From positions 1 to 57,067 of IMG/VR virus record IMGVR_UViG_3300040801_002467: 57,067 nt of DNA; one strand, written 5' to 3'. This DNA is from a virus. Under the pieces are notes generated by a model. It was given only the letters and a program-made list of their open reading frames with translations, did not search any database and had not been told where the DNA came from. The position numbers were made by a program, and so were the translations under genes. This document shows, in pieces, positions 5,668 through 43,511 of this stretch. The number at the start of each line of letters is the position of its first letter. Position 1 is the first letter of the stretch.

Positions 5668-5871
5668 TTACGTGCGAGTTAATTCAGTATCTCTAAGGTA
5701 TTTCTTCCATCGCATTTTAGCAGCGGCTTTGGCGCGATTTTTCCGTACGGACGGCTTTTCGTAGTGCTGTCTTTCACGAAGCTCTAATAATGCTCCGTTT
5801 GCTTGTACTTTTTTCTTCCATTTTCGAAATGCTTTTTCGAAATTATCGTTATGAACTATTACCGTTGGCAT
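5668..5871 (-). CDS. rpsU: Ribosomal protein bS21
   Basis: The product is 67 aa and full length. It is highly basic, with the bS21 pattern: an N-terminal strand ([20 protein letters not shown]), then [19 protein letters not shown] and a C-terminal basic helix [12 protein letters not shown]. bS21 sits on the 30S platform near the anti-Shine-Dalgarno end of 16S rRNA and affects initiation. Phage-encoded bS21 is known in aquatic phages and can replace the host subunit. The gene overlaps the clpX 3' end by 23 bases. An AGGAGG lies 14 bases upstream of the ATG, stronger but farther away than usual, which could make its translation sensitive to bS21-containing ribosomes. Confidence 0.92.
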
Positions 5872-7039
5872 GTTGTTGATTTAATCCTCCTCTTTTTGCG
5901 TCAACAGGTATATTTATTTGTTTTTTGGTTATTCTGACATTATTAACGTTTTCTTTCTGATACCGAACTACATTATACATATACGGCAATAACGTTTTTT
6001 CCATAATTGCTCTTAATGCTCTTGCTCCTGTTTTTTGCTTCATTGCTTCTTCAATAACTTGTTGCACTGCATCTTGATCAAATTCTAACTGAACTTTACT
6101 ATAATCAAATAAATGTTTATACTGATCTAACAAATTATTTTTAACTGTTGTTAATATGCTAGTCATATCTTCTTTAGTTAATTCTTGTACTTCTGTTATT
6201 ATCGGAAATCTTCCTACAAACTCTGGTATCAATCCAAATTTCACTAAATCCATAAATGATGGATCAACATTTCCGCTATTTAAATTACCACTGAAACCAA
6301 TTCTTGTATTGCTGCCCCTTTGCTTTTTAATTTGATCTAGCCCGACAAATGCTCCCGAAGCAATAAACAAAATATTCGAGGTATCAATATCTACGGTCTT
6401 ATCGGATTTTTTTGCAACTGGAACTTGGTATACTGACCCTTCAACTAATTTCAATAGAGCTTGTTGCACGCCCTCTCCTGACACATCATGACCGACATTA
6501 CTTTCTGAATTCTTACGGGCGATCTTATCAACTTCGTCTATAAACACAATACCTCGTTGTGCTAGTTCTACATTCCCATTGGCTTTTTGTAATAATTTCG
6601 TTAGAATTGTGTCTACATCTTCGCCGACATACCCTGCCTCAGTTAAACATGTTGCATCGATAATAACAAAAGGTACTTCGAGATAATCCGCAATAGTTCT
6701 AGCTAATAATGTTTTTCCAGATCCCGTCGGGCCCAATATTAATACATTGCTTTTATCTAAAAATACCTCAGGTGAATTCAAACGTTTATAATGGTTTGAA
6801 ACTGCAACCGATAGTACCATTTTAGCATAATCCTGGTTAACTACATATTCATCCAGGTACTCTTTAAGGCTAACAGGATCAACGTCGTTGATACAATCTT
6901 TGTTTGCGGTTAGTAGTTCTTTTTTTAGAATATCTGTACATAACCCAACGCATACATTGCATATTGCCACGTCGTCGCCAACAATTAATTTCTTAACCTC
7001 AGTATGACTAGTTCCACAAAAACTGCATTTTCCGGACAT
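5849..7039 (-). CDS. clpX: ClpX, ATP-dependent unfoldase of the Clp protease
   Basis: The product is 396 aa, slightly shorter than E. coli ClpX. Visible features are the C4 zinc-binding domain (C5, C8, C27 or C30, C34), Walker A GPTGSGKT (103-110), pore-1 loop GYVG (136-139), Walker [10 protein letters not shown] (about 164-172), the ClpP-docking IGF tripeptide (247-249), the FVGRFP arginine region and sensor-2 GAR (338-340). The RKH loop of bacterial ClpX, used for substrate choice, is missing: the segment at about 205-216 reads [10 protein letters not shown]. No clpP is present, so it should dock on host ClpP. The start has AAGGAG. Clustering with clpS, hsp20 and rpsU suggests a proteome-remodelling module. 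Confidence 0.93.
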
Positions 7040-19037: not shown

Positions 19038-19710
19038 CTGTATAGTATTCTTCAACGCGACGCCACCACTTGCGTCGATACTCATCCCACTTCTTACCCT
19101 CAAGTATAAATTCCTGATACTCAAAAGCTGCCGAGCACATTAACACCACCCCTTTTCGTATATTTGTACCATATACTTCATTGTGTGCCTCAGCGTATGC
19201 GGTCAATTGTATATAATAATCCTCTACACGTTCTTCGCTTTTGGGTTTGTTTGTTTGCTTGTAATCCATGATGGCAGGATCACCTTTATGCACGCCTACT
19301 AAATCTGTAGTACCAGCATATACCTCAGGGAAATATAAGGGAACTTCCATGCCCCACACTTCATCTACATGACAGAGTCCATTGCGGACTATTTGATCTG
19401 CCATCTTATTCGCCTGTTGCGCATAAGGATTGGTCCCTGGGACCGGTAGCACGCGCCCGTCCTTTACATAATCTTCAAGGTACTTGTGCATACGAGTACC
19501 TCTGTTAGCTGCTTCTGTGGTGATTTCTTGCGCTTTCTGTTTACCGACAGCCTTTCGCCAATTTGCTAAGGCTTCGCGTACTTCTTGTGGTTTTGTTTTG
19601 TCAAGGATTGTTGTGACACTTGGAACTGCGCCAAATGGCGTGTCATATAATCGTTGGCCGTTTATTTGTTTGCGTGGGACTGGCTTATAGTCAAATTTTT
19701 CTACAAGCAT
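19033..19710 (-). CDS. PD-(D/E)XK-superfamily nuclease
   Basis: The product is 225 aa. The core matches phage RecB-like exonucleases: helix with RGTRMHKYLEDYV (about 69-81), then the acid-bearing strand EVYAGTTDLVGV (about 130-141) and the DYKQTNKPK motif (about 150-158), in which Asp and Lys are catalytic. A QLTAYAEAHNEVYG helix follows. Related proteins occur in T4-like cyanophages. There are only two cysteines, so there is no Cas4-type iron-sulfur cluster. Its ATG overlaps the fdxA stop codon, so the two genes are translationally coupled. Confidence 0.8.
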   Translation of the reverse strand: MLVEKFDYKPVPRKQINGQRLYDTPFGAVPSVTTILDKTKPQEVREALANWRKAVGKQKAQEITTEAANRGTRMHKYLEDYVKDGRVLPVPGTNPYAQQANKMADQIVRNGLCHVDEVWGMEVPLYFPEVYAGTTDLVGVHKGDPAIMDYKQTNKPKSEERVEDYYIQLTAYAEAHNEVYGTNIRKGVVLMCSAAFEYQEFILEGKKWDEYRRKWWRRVEEYYTA

Positions 19711-20039
19711 TATTCACCACGATCTAATAGTTTTCTTTTATCTGGAACACCATTCCAAATATCAGCATCTTCAGGACGCTCACCAATTTTGGTAATAACC
19801 GGCCATTTTTTAGATAGTTCTGCATTAATTGCAATAAACTCTTCCTGATCTTTTGGAAGATCTTCTTCTGCAAATATAGCATCTGCTGGGCATTCTGGGA
19901 CGCAAACCGAGCAATCAATGCATTCAGCAGGATCAATTACTAACATGTTTGGGCCAACATGAAAGCAATCAACTGGGCAAACTGTAACGCAATCTTGGAA
20001 TTTACATTTAATGCAATTCTCGCCAACAATAAAAGCCAT
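19710..20039 (-). CDS. fdxA: 7Fe ferredoxin (FdxA / ferredoxin I type)
   Basis: The product is 109 aa, full length. Cysteines at 9, 12, 17, 21, 25, 40, 43, 46 and 50 match the positions in Azotobacter ferredoxin I, giving one [3Fe-4S] and one [4Fe-4S] cluster. The long C-terminal tail (AELSKKWPVI, DADIWNGVPDK) is the FdxA-specific extension. Sequence character is beta/gammaproteobacterial. It has a near-consensus sigma70 promoter and an AAGGAG site of its own. The window also encodes a ferredoxin-NADP reductase of the class that partners this protein in Azotobacter. Its electron acceptor in the infected cell is unknown. Confidence 0.95.
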   Translation of the reverse strand: MAFIVGENCIKCKFQDCVTVCPVDCFHVGPNMLVIDPAECIDCSVCVPECPADAIFAEEDLPKDQEEFIAINAELSKKWPVITKIGERPEDADIWNGVPDKRKLLDRGE

Positions 20040-30569: not shown

Positions 30570-30944
30570 GATTATACATTGTTTGATAAACTGTCTGAAA
30601 AATACCCGTTCTTGACGGTTTGTCGCTATGCCGAAAGCGAATACGTTGGCATCGTACAAAATTGCGACAGCACCATAACCACCATCTATGACTTTGGAGC
30701 ATTAATTGATCCGGCCATGAAACTAAAGTTTTTAGAATTAGGCGAAGTTTGGTGGTGGGAATCAAACCGAAGCATTCCAATTAATATTTTTTTACGTGGC
30801 GAGTGGGACATATTCAAACCGTGTTTGCGAACGTTTAATAATAAAAGTCTAGAAGTATTAATTGGCCCAACCACTAGTTTAAGTCAATTATCTGCATCTA
30901 AGCGTAAAAGAAAATCAATCACCCTTGTCCGCAAGATGGACTAA
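30567..30944 (+). CDS. Conserved phage hypothetical protein on the plus strand
   Basis: ATG 30567 gives 125 aa; a TTG eight codons earlier is less likely. The protein has a Trp-rich centre (LGEVWWWESNRSIPINIFL) and a basic end (KRKRKSITLVRKMD), a pattern I recognise from several T4-like aquatic phages without known function. It has its own TATAAATA. Its 3' end overlaps the GT10-like gene on the other strand by 30 bases (convergent). Confidence 0.6.
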   Translation: MDYTLFDKLSEKYPFLTVCRYAESEYVGIVQNCDSTITTIYDFGALIDPAMKLKFLELGEVWWWESNRSIPINIFLRGEWDIFKPCLRTFNNKSLEVLIGPTTSLSQLSASKRKRKSITLVRKMD

Positions 30945-31973
30945 TTTCTCTAACTCAAGTTCCGCGGCGACATATGCAGTTTTGTATATTTCGGTCATTA
31001 AGTTTCGATTATGCTCTACGATTTCTTTAATTTTTTCTTGTATTGCTTCTTGCGGTGCAGCAATTAATAATTCTGCAGAGTTTATTGCTGCTTTAATTCG
31101 ATCGGTTGGGTCTGCAATTTCATCATAGCTTTCATCTACTATGCCGTCGAATGTCCTAAACCCAAGTGTCCGCAATCTACGCAAATAGTGCCTACCAGAA
31201 ACAACTATAAAAAGCCGACCGGCAATTAACGGCTTTGCAACTTTTTCTGTAAAAAAAGAAAATCTATTTTGGTTATCAGTCTCGCAAACCAGACTGTATG
31301 CTGATTTATTGTAAACCTTCAATGGTATTATTTGAGATGGGCGAGTTTCGTATCCTAGATATGATACCTTGTCTCTTGGATCATCGCTTTTTTGTATATC
31401 ATCTTCCCACCAGTCCGATTCGGTTTCTACTGCGCCACTATAAACAGAATGCGTTTCCAAAAATGATGACTGTAAGTATAAATCTTTATTTTTGGAGCTA
31501 TCAATTAAAGTCTTAACTAACTCCCGATGGGGTTTTTTAGTTCCATACAATACCTCAAAAAGAAACGGCTTGCTTCCCTTATCTAATTGTTCAACTAAGA
31601 ATGACGGGCGACTCGCATATAACCGAAAGGTATCATAGAACCAAAACAGATCAGGATTTGTATTGTATCCTTCGGCTATTCCATTTACATATGAGCTTGC
31701 GTTTTCCTTTGTAGAAAGATATGACAGTACATTTAATACATCTAAGTTTACTTCAACCGATCTAAATATTATATGATCTATATCTTTTATTTTCTCCAGG
31801 ATAGCAATAATCCTATCTGAACTATCTTGTTCATATGTCATTTCAACTATTGCAAACTTTGCAATTGCCTTGCTTTCCAGAAATGAATCTATATCGCGGT
31901 ATATACAAACACCTGGATGTTTTGGCAATGTCAAAGATATCAAATAATAATTACTTAAAAAAATCGATATCAT
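30915..31973 (-). CDS. GT10-like (fucosyltransferase-fold) glycosyltransferase
   Basis: The product is 352 aa. The region at about 230-290 (SLVCETDNQNRFSFFTEKVAKPLIAG, split here only by description) contains the signature of GT-B family 10: an acidic stretch, F-x-T-E-K-x-x-K-P-L-x-A-G, then FIVVSG. It is followed by LRTLGFRTFDGIVDESYD. The N-terminal half is poorly conserved. Phage members probably transfer sugars to phage or host surface structures. It overlaps the mini-DnaE gene by four bases. Confidence 0.6.
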   Translation of the reverse strand: MISIFLSNYYLISLTLPKHPGVCIYRDIDSFLESKAIAKFAIVEMTYEQDSSDRIIAILEKIKDIDHIIFRSVEVNLDVLNVLSYLSTKENASSYVNGIAEGYNTNPDLFWFYDTFRLYASRPSFLVEQLDKGSKPFLFEVLYGTKKPHRELVKTLIDSSKNKDLYLQSSFLETHSVYSGAVETESDWWEDDIQKSDDPRDKVSYLGYETRPSQIIPLKVYNKSAYSLVCETDNQNRFSFFTEKVAKPLIAGRLFIVVSGRHYLRRLRTLGFRTFDGIVDESYDEIADPTDRIKAAINSAELLIAAPQEAIQEKIKEIVEHNRNLMTEIYKTAYVAAELELEKLVHLADKGD

Positions 31974-32530
31974 GATTCATTTACTATATTCATATGTAAT
32001 CCTACGAGGGTAGCATAAGCAATCCCGTGGGCTTTTTTAAAACTATACTCGCCATCAATTTTATCCCAAATAGTTTCTGCCATCACTTTCCATGGTTTAC
32101 CTATTAGGTGTTTCTTTGAAGGCCTAATAGCCGCCAGAAACATTGCCATGCGTGGAATTGAGTCTGGCATACACTGTTTTATTTCGCGAGCGTAATTTGC
32201 TATATGAATTATTTGTTTGACAAATTCTTCGTCATCTAATCGATGCCATGGCGGTTCTGTATTTAATAAGTGTAAATAGTGTTCTTCGTCACGAATAAAT
32301 TGGTATACAAAAACGTTTAGTAGGTCTAGCTTAAAATAGCCGCGAGCATCGGCGTCTTTATAGTGTAATGCCGATGCACCCAACGCTGGGTCGTATGGAA
32401 TTGGCTGGACATAAACGCCCGAGGCATGCCGTTCGGGATTCCCGGAATGTATTTTTCTAGCAGGGATATGTTTTATCAACTCGAGAATTTGATTTCGGTC
32501 CGCAAAATCAATGTCAATGTCTGCTGCCAT
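31970..32530 (-). CDS. Miniature DnaE-like protein (C-family polymerase palm signatures)
   Basis: The product is 186 aa; DnaE is about 1,160. Four DnaE signatures occur in the right order. ADIDIDF (3-9) equals PDFDVDF, carrying the first two catalytic Asp (D4, D6). HASGVYV (35-41) followed by GYFKLDLLNV (64-73) equals HAGGVVI...GLVKFDFLGL, with the third catalytic Asp as D69. FLAAIRPSKK (131-140) equals VALFRPGPL. FKKAHGIAYA (164-173) equals FNKSHSAAYA. The PHP, thumb and most finger regions are absent. It lies in a replication neighbourhood beside a gp62-like gene. Polymerase activity cannot be assumed; a replisome decoy or a reduced enzyme are both possible. Confidence 0.7.
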   Translation of the reverse strand: MAADIDIDFADRNQILELIKHIPARKIHSGNPERHASGVYVQPIPYDPALGASALHYKDADARGYFKLDLLNVFVYQFIRDEEHYLHLLNTEPPWHRLDDEEFVKQIIHIANYAREIKQCMPDSIPRMAMFLAAIRPSKKHLIGKPWKVMAETIWDKIDGEYSFKKAHGIAYATLVGLHMNIVNES

Positions 32531-33234
32531 TACCAGTTTCCTGCAATTAATAGACTTTTTAAGTAGTCTGCTTCATCTTTACGATTTGCTATTATAGTAT
32601 TCCACGCCGACGGATCAATGTATTCCCAAACACCATCTAAGTAATTACCTTCAAGAGTGGCAAGACGTTTTTGACCATTCTTACTCATATACAAAATCCA
32701 TGGGCTAACTTTTCCGTTCTGTATTGCATAAACTAAACTTAGGTCTGTCATGTATCTTAGCATAACGTGAGAGGGCATATTCTTTTTCTCAGCCCACACA
32801 ATACTATATTTTATCGCCCGCTCTAATGCATCCACCGCCGGCTCTTCTCGTAAGTATTCTATGAAAAATTTGTTATACTGTTGATCACTTGCCCAGCGAT
32901 CAACAGGTATGTTTTGTTTTATTAACCATTGCAAAAATTGGTCTGCTGCAATAATCTTACTATTATAGCAATACTCACCAAACTTAATAAACGCTTTATA
33001 GTAAGGACTTTTTTCAAAAAAATCAAAACTGTATTGCTTTAATGAATTTAGCTGAGTGCGATAAAACTCATTGAATAGGTGTAGTGATAACTTAGTTGAT
33101 TTTTCTTCTCTCAACAAAACTCGTTTTTTCTTTTCACAAAGATGCTTTTCAAACGCCACTTGTTGTTTATATTGCTTGTTACAATACTCACAACGAAGAT
33201 TTTCGTTTGCTTGATTTTTGTTGTCCGTGTCCAT
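32530..33234 (-). CDS. Zinc-finger protein of unknown function
   Basis: ATG 33234 gives 234 aa. Residues about 15-37 form a small zinc finger (CEYCNKQYKQQVAFEKHLC) of the C2H2/C2HC kind. The rest is helical and aromatic-rich with no further motif. Proteins with this N-terminal finger are seen in other T4-like aquatic phages beside replication genes. It overlaps the gp62-like gene by 47 bases and the mini-DnaE gene by one base, so the three are probably made together; interaction is possible but untested. Confidence 0.6.
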   Translation of the reverse strand: MDTDNKNQANENLRCEYCNKQYKQQVAFEKHLCEKKKRVLLREEKSTKLSLHLFNEFYRTQLNSLKQYSFDFFEKSPYYKAFIKFGEYCYNSKIIAADQFLQWLIKQNIPVDRWASDQQYNKFFIEYLREEPAVDALERAIKYSIVWAEKKNMPSHVMLRYMTDLSLVYAIQNGKVSPWILYMSKNGQKRLATLEGNYLDGVWEYIDPSAWNTIIANRKDEADYLKSLLIAGNW

Positions 33235-33673
33235 CAATGAATTCTTTTAATTCTTTCTTACTTATTAGTTGGCTAAGGGCAGCGGCGTCATCGTCTTTCA
33301 TATTTGGAAATAACTCTTTGAGTTGAGCCTTCATTGGATTTGCATCCTTTTGCAATTTAATCCACTTATGTTTTTGATTTCCGACACCTGGGCTTACCGC
33401 AGTTAATAATAACCACATAAGTTTTCTATGATCTTTTTCTAGTGTAAGAGGTATATCAAAAAAATGTTTGTTTACACATAAGTTGGTATTGCGCAAATAA
33501 TACTCTGCAATATCTGCACTGCTGCTTTCAACGGACGACATCCAGCGGTTTAGTGTAAAGAATGTTATTGCCTTTTTTTCGTCATCACTAAGTGAGTCAA
33601 AGTATTCTCGATCTTTACGATTAATCGCTGGCAAAACATCTTTAAATAAATCAAGTTTGTATTCCTTTGCCAT
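33188..33673 (-). CDS. 62: Clamp-loader small subunit-like protein (T4 gp62-like)
   Basis: The product is 161 aa; T4 gp62 is 187. The shared pattern is an AINRK motif near residue 18, a middle segment of aromatic helices, and LLLTAVSPGVGNQKHKWIKLQ (about 88-108), matching the gp62 block LMAAVP...YGKWAKL. The C-terminal helical region ends basic. gp62 joins gp44 to load the sliding clamp gp45; neither is in this window. The match is by eye and of moderate strength. Confidence 0.6.
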   Translation of the reverse strand: MAKEYKLDLFKDVLPAINRKDREYFDSLSDDEKKAITFFTLNRWMSSVESSSADIAEYYLRNTNLCVNKHFFDIPLTLEKDHRKLMWLLLTAVSPGVGNQKHKWIKLQKDANPMKAQLKELFPNMKDDDAAALSQLISKKELKEFIDGHGQQKSSKRKSSL

Positions 33674-34173
33674 TACCAGAGTTTCCCATAATCAATTACT
33701 TCACAATTTCGAGAAATGTCTTTAATAAAATAAACGACTCTGGGTTTATCACCATCATCAATAGGAACTGCTAAAAACTGGCCATTTTTAAGTTTTGGTG
33801 CGTACCAATTAACTTCGCTATAGACATCAACAATTTCAATTGGCAAAAATGTTGGAGAAAAACTTGTTCGGCTATTAAATTCAAAGACGTTAAAGTCTCG
33901 ATCGTTTATAGAAGTCAATGGCAATGTTTCTAGATCGCCAACCTCCTCTTCCCCAATGATTACCTGCCAATCAACCGGCATCTTAATTTTCTGATCACCA
34001 ATTTTCAATACAAGTGCAGGGCTTGTAAAACTTTCCAGGAAGATTAAAGGAATGTATTTGAAATCAGGCTCGTCTGGGTTTGAGTTATCCAGTATTGCAA
34101 ATCGCAAATCATCAATCTGCTCCGGCAGGGTATTTAATTCAAAACAAGTGTTATCAAGTGTATGGATTCTCAT
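33673..34173 (-). CDS. Conserved phage hypothetical protein
   Basis: The product is 166 aa, acidic and beta-rich. The central DFNVFEFNSRTSFSPTFLPI and the end VVYFIKDISRNCEVIDYGKLW resemble a family common in T4-like aquatic phages. No role is known. A sigma70-type promoter (34180-34208) precedes it with the -10 only six bases from the ATG, and it leads a transcript through the gp62-like, zinc-finger and mini-DnaE genes. Confidence 0.55.
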   Translation of the reverse strand: MRIHTLDNTCFELNTLPEQIDDLRFAILDNSNPDEPDFKYIPLIFLESFTSPALVLKIGDQKIKMPVDWQVIIGEEEVGDLETLPLTSINDRDFNVFEFNSRTSFSPTFLPIEIVDVYSEVNWYAPKLKNGQFLAVPIDDGDKPRVVYFIKDISRNCEVIDYGKLW

Positions 34174-35647: not shown

Positions 35648-36382
35648 TCACTTCGAAACAAAAGCACGCTCTATTAAAAATTCTCCCGGTTCGCGCAACG
35701 ATCCTAATTTCCACCCATTGTCTTTAAAGTATTTTTCCATATCTTTTACGAATTCTGTTGACCCACAAATCATTGCTCGGTCAGATTTGGGTGTCCACAA
35801 ATCAATGTTAACGACCTTAAAAAGTTCGCCGCTGTCAATGTGTTGCGTAATTCTTCCTTTCTTGTATAAAGACTCTGGCTGTCGAGTGACTGTTGGATAA
35901 TAAAAGAGATTGTTAATGTTCTTAATTTCTTGCTGGTATGTTAGTTCGTCTTCTTGCCGTACGGTATGCGTTAAAATTACTTCGTCAAATTGACTAAATG
36001 TTTCACTATCTCTTACGATGCTCATAAAAGGAGCAATGCCCGTGCCAGTTGACAATAACCATAATCTTTTGCCGGGCTTTAAACAACGAACCATTAACGA
36101 TCCGACAGGACGATCAGCAATCTCAACCTCGTCCCCAACATTAATTCGGCTCAACGGATTTGTGAACTCTCCATCCGGCACTTTAATAGAATAAAATTCC
36201 AAGTAAGGTACTGATGCTGGGCTAGCAATTGAATAGGCGCGCATTAAATCTGATGCTAATGCTGGCAACCCAATCATAGTAAACTGCCCAGGTATAAATT
36301 TATAGTCTGGGTTTTTCGTTGTGGTAAAGCGAAATAGCTTATCGTTGAAATGTTCGACTGTTAGAACTGTTTCGATATTCAT
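35648..36382 (-). CDS. fpr: Ferredoxin-NADP(+) reductase, bacterial FPR type
   Basis: The ATG at 36382 overlaps the uvsW TGA and gives 244 aa; counted with two residues more upstream, FAD-binding RAYS is at 50-53, the NADP(H) motif STGTGIAPF at 113-121 and MICGS at 206-210. The C-terminus GEFLIERAFVSK has the AFVxK ending of subclass I bacterial enzymes from Azotobacter and relatives. It moves electrons between NADPH and ferredoxin. FdxA, encoded at 19.7-20.0 kb, is the known partner type. Full length and all cofactor motifs suggest an active enzyme. It is translationally coupled to uvsW. Confidence 0.92.
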   Translation of the reverse strand: MNIETVLTVEHFNDKLFRFTTTKNPDYKFIPGQFTMIGLPALASDLMRAYSIASPASVPYLEFYSIKVPDGEFTNPLSRINVGDEVEIADRPVGSLMVRCLKPGKRLWLLSTGTGIAPFMSIVRDSETFSQFDEVILTHTVRQEDELTYQQEIKNINNLFYYPTVTRQPESLYKKGRITQHIDSGELFKVVNIDLWTPKSDRAMICGSTEFVKDMEKYFKDNGWKLGSLREPGEFLIERAFVSK

Positions 36383-37839
36383 TTCCAATTAACCTTCTCA
36401 ATCTTAAATGGGTATTCTGCCTCTCTATAAAACTGCTTACGTTTAGTTAGATGACGTTTAGCAAATTTACAAGTCGAAGTAATGTCCCAAATCTGCACAA
36501 AGTCTTTATCCTTTGCAATACGAACACCGCGGCCGATACTTTGTATAACCCTTACAAACGACTTGCCAGGTTCAATAAGAACCAGGTTAAAGATCCTAGG
36601 GATATTAATACCGACTGCTGCCACACCGTATGTAGCCACGATAATTTTATTGTTAGCCGTTGCAATTTCATCGTAATGCTCTTTTCGTTGTGTTGTTTTT
36701 GTAGCACCAGAAACAAATACAGCCAAGTCGCCCATTCTACTTACTAGTTCTTTTCCTGCACTAACACGATCAACCAATACTAGGGTATTGCCGGATTCTG
36801 AAATGTCTAATATAGTTTGTGCAATATGATCTAGTCTATTGGTATCCGATAAGAGATACTTTAGTTCAGCCTGATATTGTTTGAACTCAACATGGTCGAT
36901 TAGCTGTAATATATTTACATGGCACTCTGCCAGAATACCTTTCTTTTGTAGTTCCGCAGCGGTGACCTGACCAACAACATTTCCAATACTAACCTGCAAT
37001 GACTTAAATTCAAAATCTTCTTTTGGGATCGTGCCAGTTAGTCCCCAGCGAATTGGAATATGAGCAAACGGTCCGGTTAACATTCCTTTTAGTGCATCGG
37101 CCTTGGCGCTATGTACTTCGTCTACTATAACACACACCACGTCTTCTAAAAATTCATGTATAGTAATATCTGCTTCGCCGTCTTTCGTTTTCTTAAAAAG
37201 GTTATTCAAACTTTGCCATGTGCAGATAGTATGTTGATGCCCAAACTCTTTGCGGCCACCATAGTAAACGCCAACGTCTAATTGTAGGTTTCGATAATCT
37301 TCTTCAGTCTGTGTTACCAGAGACTTATTCGGAACAATAACAATCGATCGACCATATTGTTCAACAGTATAACTTAGTGCAGCCGTAACGATTGTTTTGC
37401 CTGCGCCGGTTGCTACTTCTTGGAGGCTTTGTGGATTATTCAAGAAGTTATCAATAACTTCAAGTTGGTGGTCACGCAATAAGATGGGTTGGCCAGCTAG
37501 CGTATGTTTGTCGGGCCAGGTAATATGAGCGAACGAGTCCTCAACTATTTGTTGGAATGAGAAACTCGTTTGGTAGGTTCTACGATCGTCGATCGCTAAC
37601 TCATACCCTTCGCTTATTAATGTCGGGACAATCTCATCAAGGAGATTAATGTAGGTTGAACCACCGAGTTGGAAGAACCCAACCTTGCCATCCCAGCGGC
37701 CGAGCTTAACTGCGGGAAGGTGCCGAGCATAAGGCACCTCATACTTAAACTTATTGGTAAGTTTTCGTCTGGTATCGAGATCAAGACCAGTAATTTTTAC
37801 ATTTACTTCATCTTTTATTAGTATTGTTGCCGGTTTCAT
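36379..37839 (-). CDS. uvsW: UvsW, SF2 recombination helicase
   Basis: The product is 486 aa (T4 UvsW about 500). The N-terminal DNA-binding domain (1-110) has LPAVKLGRWDGKVGFF. The helicase core has LRDHQLEVID (Q region), Walker A ATGAGKT (about 142-148), the DEVH box (VIVDEVHSAK), GLTGTI (motif III) and QSIGRGVRI (motif VI). It reverses forks and unwinds R-loops, switching the phage to recombination-dependent replication. The next gene downstream is fpr with ATGA coupling, an unusual neighbour. Confidence 0.94.
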   Translation of the reverse strand: MKPATILIKDEVNVKITGLDLDTRRKLTNKFKYEVPYARHLPAVKLGRWDGKVGFFQLGGSTYINLLDEIVPTLISEGYELAIDDRRTYQTSFSFQQIVEDSFAHITWPDKHTLAGQPILLRDHQLEVIDNFLNNPQSLQEVATGAGKTIVTAALSYTVEQYGRSIVIVPNKSLVTQTEEDYRNLQLDVGVYYGGRKEFGHQHTICTWQSLNNLFKKTKDGEADITIHEFLEDVVCVIVDEVHSAKADALKGMLTGPFAHIPIRWGLTGTIPKEDFEFKSLQVSIGNVVGQVTAAELQKKGILAECHVNILQLIDHVEFKQYQAELKYLLSDTNRLDHIAQTILDISESGNTLVLVDRVSAGKELVSRMGDLAVFVSGATKTTQRKEHYDEIATANNKIIVATYGVAAVGINIPRIFNLVLIEPGKSFVRVIQSIGRGVRIAKDKDFVQIWDITSTCKFAKRHLTKRKQFYREAEYPFKIEKVNWK

Positions 37840-41888: not shown

Positions 41889-42340
41889 ATTGTTGCATCC
41901 TCGAGCCCAGCGGTTCTTAATTTAGTAATATGTCCCAATTGCCATTGTTTGGAATCGAGACCCTTAATAACGCCCAGGAATCGATTTCGAAGCAACGCAA
42001 CCTCATTAACCAATATCTCGTAATTAATTACTTCGTCCTCGGCATCAGCATATTTTTCAGCGTCGCGACTAGTTAACGCTCTAGCATAACTTTCGAGATA
42101 TTTTTTAAAGTGTTTCTTTTTAATCTTTCGCAACTCAAGGTTGAGATAATTTAGTACCGCCTCAATTTCCTGCAATTGGCTAAAACGATGTTCGGTAATT
42201 CCTGGCAAATCTCTTAGATTTTTTTCGATGTTGCCATAGATCGAACACTCTTTCTTTGCATCCAGAATTTCATTCTCATACTGATCAATAAAATCAGTTA
42301 GCAATGAAAGATCTCGAGTTACTTGATTATATCTGATCAC
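41885..42340 (-). CDS. uvsY: UvsY recombination mediator
   Basis: The product is 151 aa (T4 UvsY 137) from a GTG start at 42340. It has the family pattern NIEKNLRDLPGITEHRFSQLQEIEAVL, shown here in part (LPGITEHRFSQLQEIEA), plus SRDAEKYADAEDEV and the end LRTAGLEDATI. UvsY displaces gp32 and loads UvsX on ssDNA; uvsX and gene 32 are 2-4 kb away. It overlaps the radical SAM gene by 14 bases. Confidence 0.85.
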   Translation of the reverse strand: MIRYNQVTRDLSLLTDFIDQYENEILDAKKECSIYGNIEKNLRDLPGITEHRFSQLQEIEAVLNYLNLELRKIKKKHFKKYLESYARALTSRDAEKYADAEDEVINYEILVNEVALLRNRFLGVIKGLDSKQWQLGHITKLRTAGLEDATI

Positions 42341-43511
42341 GTATGCCTAACCAATGCAAAAAACTTTCAGGTAAAAACTGTAGTGACAAATCGTTTCTTC
42401 TTTTCTGATATTGAAGTAAAAACTCTTTTAAGGTTAGACGTTCTTCTTCTGTCGGTTGATAGTTTAACGACTTTTTTATTTTTTCCTGCAGATCTATTGG
42501 GAAAATATCTAAATCTTCAACTATCAAGTTTTTTGAGTCATCGTCTAATATTCCGGCCTTCATAAATGTTGGTTCCATAGCAAAATACGGCAATATTTTT
42601 TGATTCTCATATTTTTTATAGAATTCAGAAAAATTTAAAATGGTCAAATTACTTAATGTACTACGGAACGAAAAATCTAATCCATTTTCAATTAACTGAT
42701 TAATTCGTGATTGTGTTAATTCCCAAGTGATTCCATAACGATTAAATTCTGCGTACTTTCCAGTATTTTCTACACTAACTCTTAACTCAATATTTGGATT
42801 TTCCTTCATTCTGGAAATCAATTTATCAAATTTTTGCTGGCTTGTATTCAATCCGGTTGATAACTGTATAGTTTCTATATTTTTATTTTTGTTTGCTAAT
42901 TCCAAAATATCATCAAAAAATTTGTTAAGTAACGGCTCGCCGCCGGTGATTACAATTTTTTTAACTTTAGGAATTAAACTAAGGATCTCGGATTCTAATA
43001 ACTTATACTCAGGCTGGTTAATAATATTTTTCTGTAAATTGTTAACATCATAATCCCGAGACTGTCTATTAAATCTCTCATCCACATAATGTGTAAATTC
43101 GTAATTGCCGAACTTATCTAGTTCAGTAGACCACCTGGTGCTATATTCACGACAACAATACGAGCATGCACAATTACAGTCTCTAGTTAACAATAACTCT
43201 AGCACTTCTGGATCTGTGCGAACCGAGGTATGCGACCGAACACTCCCATTATATATGTCCCGTTGGCTTGGTGCACCGAAGTCTTCGGCTTTCCAGCAAT
43301 TTGCTTCGCAACGATCAGTCCTTTCGTTGCGAAGCATTTTTTCCCTATCGGACACATCTTCAGGAATGTTAAATATATCGCCCGGTGTGGTTTCTATTCG
43401 TTTAAAATCAATAGGAACCGATTTCGTGGCACAACAACTTAACGTGCATTTATTAACTGCATCAATTTTTAGATATTTAAACTTATTGTTGCAATAATAG
43501 TCACGAGCCAT
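42327..43511 (-). CDS. Radical SAM protein (twitch type)
   Basis: The product is 394 aa. The [4Fe-4S] motif CNCACSYC (CX3CX2C) lies near residue 112-119 and the SAM-binding ITGGEPLLN near 188-196. Extra cysteines in the N-terminal part (CTLSCC, CEANC) could bind an auxiliary cluster, as in twitch or SPASM enzymes. Such proteins are frequent in T4-like phages beside recombination genes, with unknown substrate. The NADPH-FPR-FdxA pair of this phage could provide reducing power; this is an inference. Confidence 0.8.
   Translation of the reverse strand: MARDYYCNNKFKYLKIDAVNKCTLSCCATKSVPIDFKRIETTPGDIFNIPEDVSDREKMLRNERTDRCEANCWKAEDFGAPSQRDIYNGSVRSHTSVRTDPEVLELLLTRDCNCACSYCCREYSTRWSTELDKFGNYEFTHYVDERFNRQSRDYDVNNLQKNIINQPEYKLLESEILSLIPKVKKIVITGGEPLLNKFFDDILELANKNKNIETIQLSTGLNTSQQKFDKLISRMKENPNIELRVSVENTGKYAEFNRYGITWELTQSRINQLIENGLDFSFRSTLSNLTILNFSEFYKKYENQKILPYFAMEPTFMKAGILDDDSKNLIVEDLDIFPIDLQEKIKKSLNYQPTEEERLTLKEFLLQYQKRRNDLSLQFLPESFLHWLGIRDQI

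Follow-up and report, generated by a model that had tools for sequence, protein, structure and literature searches.

The 186-residue protein encoded on the minus strand between positions 31970 and 32530 of the window (the whole stretch of DNA analysed, a 57,067-base virus record that is a fragment of a genome) probably serves T4-like jumbo phages as the C-terminal subunit of a minimal accessory DNA polymerase of the C family that is encoded by two genes. We infer the association of the two subunits, their activity and their role. The protein, called here the C unit, would make up the second half of a greatly reduced DNA polymerase core of the bacterial type, which in large phages appears to be distributed over two genes; the product of the other gene is called the N unit.

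Homology of the C unit to Pol III alpha

The C unit and its motifs are located in the window as follows (the basis of each assignment is given in parentheses):

31970..32530, minus strand: predicted C-terminal unit of a split minimal Pol III alpha-like polymerase, 186 aa (ORF, phrog_11778, hhalign, AF2, Foldseek)
32504..32524, minus strand: ADIDIDF metal-binding motif; D4, D6 (D8) correspond to E. coli D401, D403 (D405) (by motif; E. coli PDFDVDF at 400)
32417..32428, minus strand: H-x-x-G (HASG, H35-G38), corresponding to E. coli H511-G514 (HAGG) (hhalign)
32315..32335, minus strand: FKLDLLN (residues 66-72); K67 and D69 correspond to E. coli K553 and D555, the latter being the third catalytic Asp (hhalign)
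32114..32125, minus strand: RPSK (residues 136-139); R136/P137 correspond to E. coli R639-P640 (hhalign)
32012..32041, minus strand: FKKAHGIAYA (residues 164-173), corresponding to E. coli FNKSHSAAYA, which starts at 756 (colinear in profile alignments)

The reading frame lies near the middle of the window, starts with an ATG at 32530 and has a stop codon ending at 31970. The 186-residue frame described in an earlier, sequence-only reading of this DNA does exist, but it has to be read on the minus strand: the plus strand of 31970-32530 contains stops throughout. The ATG and the stop codon of the upstream zinc-finger gene overlap by one base (TAATG), resembling the arrangement in translationally coupled operons. 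The four motif blocks were found in the order in which they had been reported, i.e. ADIDIDF (residues 3-9), HASGV (35-39) followed by FKLDLLNV (66-73), AAIRPS (133-138) and FKKAHGIAYA (164-173).

When the single C-unit protein was compared with Pfam, NCBIfam and PDB sequences, no match above threshold was obtained, and a search with the C-unit profile returned weak, colinear pieces of E. coli DnaE. The case for DnaE therefore rests on hhalign, PHROG and structure. Over its whole length, the C unit matched PHROG 11778, a family annotated as 'DNA polymerase' (E 1e-51), and its FKKAH segment matched phrog_405, a 1190-position phage DNA polymerase family (E 7.5e-4). An hhalign comparison between 60 C-unit relatives and nine DnaE sequences (E. 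coli DnaE and eight diverse phage DnaE sequences) yielded E 2.1e-6 and aligned residues 30-139, a confident span that is shorter than the full chain, with E. coli 506-642. The best E value obtained with 20 column-shuffled control alignments was 0.069.

The AlphaFold (AF2) model of the C unit had a mean pLDDT of 92.7. When this model was compared with the PDB by Foldseek, the top 15 matches were all bacterial Pol III alpha/DnaE-type (C-family) polymerases, with probabilities from 1.00 down to 0.54, and the matches below rank 15 were noise. The best E value was 3.7e-4; the TM-scores were moderate (0.39-0.61), and the highest value was obtained with 3e0d, a ternary complex of the Taq enzyme. Matches above noise in the viral library were likewise DnaE-type polymerases where they had names. 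The resemblance of the C unit to the DnaE palm and to part of the fingers is thus beyond chance and represents genuine homology, and the C-family relationship that had been proposed was borne out by profile comparison as well as by structure prediction.

Residues D4, D6, D8, H35, G38, K67, D69, L71, R136, P137, K139, H168 and Y172 were identical in 87 of 87 distinct C units. Counterparts of the three catalytic aspartates, D4, D6 and D69, had been recognized before, and all three are among these invariant positions; D4 and D6 were equated with D401 and D403 by motif (E. coli P400-DFDVD-F406) and not through an end-to-end hhalign alignment. Judging from the fold match, the three residues would converge in one site. 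The length of the C unit is kept at 180-215 aa in the 87 distinct sequences, and the loci coding for it number at least 588 in IMG/VR viral contigs, those for the N unit at least 556.

The PHP, thumb, beta-clamp and OB domains are absent, as had been noted previously. The chain of 186 residues stops after the FKKxH..YA helix and has no PHP, clamp-binding or OB regions, and in place of the thumb there are 26 residues between D8 and H35, as compared with approximately 105 in E. coli (D405-H511). Similarly, about 27 residues lie between RP and FKKxH, as compared with about 116 in E. coli, and the TYG..YQEQ and LRRAMGKK finger motifs (E. coli 680-715) are missing. Also absent from the C unit is the palm GS motif (GxGRGS), located ahead of the DxD strand in DnaE. 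The claim that the protein contains all DnaE catalytic signatures was therefore too strong, because the GS motif is carried by the partner (see below), and neither the N nor the C chain contains anything equivalent to the thumb or to the finger segments with YQEQ and LRRAMGKK. As a consequence of the latter, binding of dNTP or of primer-template may fail.

The N unit, a probable partner encoded by a separate gene

In the search of nine complete relatives with PF07733, one match above the family cut-off was found in each (9/9), with E values from 8e-13 to 1.4e-8. The N units of these phages are 169-183 residues long. The last ~75 residues (109-183) align without gaps with E. coli 318-392 (hhalign E 2.8e-9) and contain counterparts of E. 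coli E328, R362-G363-S364, S368 and F391; GxGRGS was present without exception in the 86 N units compared. A structure search with the AF2 model of the N unit placed Pol III alpha first. Independently, the record annotators had labelled one or both units as Pol III alpha in several phages. Examples of the N and C genes in one complete phage are gp373 and gp411 of RaK2, and XAI94149 and XAI94078 of PAC2.

The N unit ends with '..EFL(K/N)', which is equivalent to the '..RFL' located just before 'NPERVSMPDFDVDF' in E. coli DnaE, and the C units begin with 'PDIDID' or 'TDIDID'. Taking into account that one chain ends at FL(N) and the other starts at (P)DIDID, the DnaE palm has been divided at one point, with almost nothing lost. 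Neither a full DnaE elsewhere in the nine relatives, where the PF07733 matches above cut-off were the N units alone, nor an N+C fusion of sufficient length among the 173 unit sequences collected was seen. The palm that had been described as free-standing thus has its N-terminal half encoded by a separate gene in every complete relative examined.

No N unit was found in the 57-kb window, either with PF07733 or with a profile made from the N units. The distance between the N and the C gene is 14-224 kb in the nine phages and approximately 43-108 kb in three closer IMG/VR relatives. With such spacing, and with the C unit near the middle of a 57-kb fragment, the missing N unit is expected; for the phage represented by the window we infer, rather than see, this gene.

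The two units occur together in the great majority of the phage records listed. Using tblastn at E 1e-8, a C unit was detected in 63 phage records and a phage-type N unit in 60; among the first 60 matches listed for each, 59 records were common to both. The record with only a C unit among the matches listed was a 109.5-kb assembly, and the record with only an N unit may be one of the three further C records outside the 60 listed. The N-bearing IMG/VR contigs longer than 250 kb that were tested also contained the C unit (4/4), and three contigs of 54-159 kb did not. Mean identity among the nine phages was 43% for the C units and 34% for the N units. The distance matrices of the two units were correlated over the nine phages (r 0.71), a value that is no evidence of contact between N and C because shared descent gives the same.

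Genomic surroundings of the two units

The gene content of the window is that of a T4-like jumbo phage, with genes for a DnaB-type helicase, a primase, UvsW, a UvsX-like recombinase and ribonucleotide reductase. The neighbourhood of the C unit was compared across 89 C-unit loci, and the following conserved neighbours were found in the window:

32530..33237, minus strand: C2H2-type zinc-finger protein (phrog_11058, 6.4e-46; weak zinc-finger matches), present in 83/89 C-unit loci
33188..33673, minus strand: conserved neighbour, phrog_11758, present in 78/89 C-unit loci
30570..30944, plus strand: small conserved gene of ~124 aa downstream of the C unit, present in 86/89 loci and always on the strand opposite to the C unit

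UvsW, primase and helicase genes are nearby in many of the 89 loci. The small gene at 30570-30944 is on the strand opposite to all of its neighbours, and its product is 60-67% identical among the closer relatives. In the window a further gene (30915-31973, minus strand) is inserted between the C unit and this opposite-strand gene; it encodes a 352-aa protein with no Pfam or PHROG match, a homologue of which was found in only 7 of the 89 related loci. The 166-aa gene at 33673-34173 (minus strand), near the UvsW cluster, shows ~67% identity across 64 related loci and is therefore more conserved than the polymerase unit.

The neighbour at 33188-33673 had been called gp62-like. When it was compared by hhalign with gp62 of T4, Aeh1, PhiW-14 and Sf20, only E 0.38 was reached, no gp62 match was found for it in PDB or PHROG, and comparison of the genes that follow gp44 in the relatives with T4-type gp62 gave no support either. 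By eye, the pattern of this phrog_11758 protein is loosely gp62-like, and a distant relation may exist.

The N unit belongs to a different cluster, which also contains genes for PhoH, a GroES-like protein and a clamp-loader ATPase of the gp44 type. A family B polymerase was present in 11 of 12 relatives and a DnaQ-type exonuclease above cut-off in 7 of the 12. These observations suggest that the split unit is accessory to the replicase and does not replace it.

Some other genes of the window are worth recording. An FAD/NAD oxidoreductase of the ferredoxin-reductase type is encoded at 35648-36388 and a ferredoxin with a DUF3470 tail (FdxA-like) at 19710-20039, both on the minus strand; in another locus (L172), the gene after gp44 likewise encodes a ferredoxin whose start is similar. 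The oxidoreductase and the ferredoxin possibly constitute a phage redox pair, perhaps serving ribonucleotide reductase. A phage ClpX-type ATPase with the ClpX zinc finger (5849-7039, minus strand) and a radical SAM protein adjoining the UvsX-type recombinase (42327-43511, minus strand) were also identified.

Possible function and comparison with known systems

In the two-subunit polymerase that we favour, the C unit would supply the metal-binding residues D4, D6 and D69 together with a much shortened fingers/template-binding segment, and the part of the palm that comes before these elements, including the nucleotide-binding GxGRGS loop, would be supplied by the N unit (~175 aa, encoded elsewhere). 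Together the chains would form one palm of ~360 residues that has no thumb and no PHP, OB or clamp-binding region. In this palm, the three Asp residues of C and the GRGS loop of N would be brought into a single two-metal active site, and the remaining finger helices of C might grip the template or the nucleotide. Such a pair could serve the phage as a second polymerase, additional to the family B replicase, that fills gaps, repairs DNA or finishes strands.

That neither set of catalytic residues varies speaks for an active enzyme. With finger and thumb elements missing, its reaction may or may not be ordinary templated DNA synthesis. We put forward only tentatively the more specific proposal that two unlinked chains of ~180 residues, thumbless and lacking YQEQ and LRRAMGKK, are a working templated polymerase that is widespread in jumbo phages and has a role or substrate unlike that of the family B replicase.

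Alternatively, the pair could transfer nucleotides without carrying out template-directed DNA synthesis, as would an enzyme with this palm that adds nucleotide tails or makes a ligand. Many nucleotidyltransferases other than polymerases have a pol beta-type palm. In the phage pair, the metal-binding residues and those of the GS motif do not vary, and the DnaE elements that hold template and primer, namely the finger motifs and the thumb, are missing. We consider this unlikely, as FKKxH..YA and RPxK, which are finger elements of DnaE, have been kept and are nearly or fully invariant, and the location of the C genes beside UvsW, primase and DnaB helicase and of the N unit near gp44 points to DNA replication. 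It is quite unlikely that the fold has been retained without activity, in a structural or regulatory subunit of the replisome or in a decoy of the host polymerase. Large parts of DnaE required for processive synthesis are indeed missing and the phages already own a family B polymerase, but a structural role would not need all of the catalytic Asp residues, K67 and GRGS, which are invariant over deep divergence. The decoy and the template-independent readings that had been offered earlier gained no positive support. That the 186-residue C unit alone is a free-standing minimal polymerase is very improbable: the single-chain model is confident and the partner is absent from the window, but the window is a fragment, and in all complete relatives the GS motif completing the palm is on a separate protein. 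The shortness of the C unit relative to DnaE might suggest a full-length DnaE gene in decay, but this can be dismissed in view of the maintained length (180-215 aa), the active-site residues invariant in 87 sequences and the at least 588 coding loci.

If active, the two-subunit polymerase would show how little of Pol III alpha suffices for nucleotide addition, would offer a simple two-protein system for ideas on the origin of C-family polymerases, and would account for the second, bacterial-type core kept by jumbo phages that have a family B replicase. Few template-directed DNA polymerases would be as small, and it would be the first member of the C family shown to work as a heterodimeric palm. 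Dozens of cultured phages are known to have both genes, and for some of them the recorded host is E. coli K-12, which makes the system testable.

The sequence-only reading had regarded the protein as a possible new polymerase form. Such a form had already been described: in an in silico study, Iyer et al. 2021 (PMC7824862) reported that group 2.2 jumbo phages have a minimal Pol III alpha split into two, encoded by distant genes, with an N-terminal NTP-binding half and a C-terminal half binding Mg and template, alongside a family B polymerase. They suggested cooperation in the synthesis of one strand or in repair. The C unit appears to be the same thing, as matched by description and not by accession. 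No experimental or biochemical study published after this prediction was found in the open literature searched. The window protein is a further member of the kind described there, with the extra 352-aa gene (30915-31973) inserted beside it. The present analysis adds where exactly the palm is divided, which residues are invariant, how often the two units co-occur, in which gene clusters they lie and which DnaE elements are missing from both. In earlier genome papers, truncated Pol III alpha proteins were noted in CBB and Atu_ph07; gp316 of Atu_ph07 is the N unit, and CBB_328, with 172 aa, has the length of an N unit.

The members of PHROG 11778 (RaK2 gp411, PA5oct, Phosso 437 and Atu_ph07 gp74) are 34-45% identical to the C unit over the whole length. 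They have its active-site residues and mostly similar neighbours, and differ only by divergence and by flanking insertions. E. coli and Taq DnaE share with the C unit the DxDxD, HxxG, KxDxL, RP and F(N/K)KxH..YA motifs in this order, as well as the fold. They differ from it in size (1160 residues versus 186) and in the location of the GS motif, which in the split system sits on the partner.

In cyanobacteria, one DnaE is made from two distant genes with the help of a split intein. A split intein was considered for the phage units and rejected, as these end and begin directly at the palm sequence, leaving no room for intein segments. In contrast to the cyanobacterial enzyme, the phage protein is minimal throughout, and its division is inside the palm, just before DxD.
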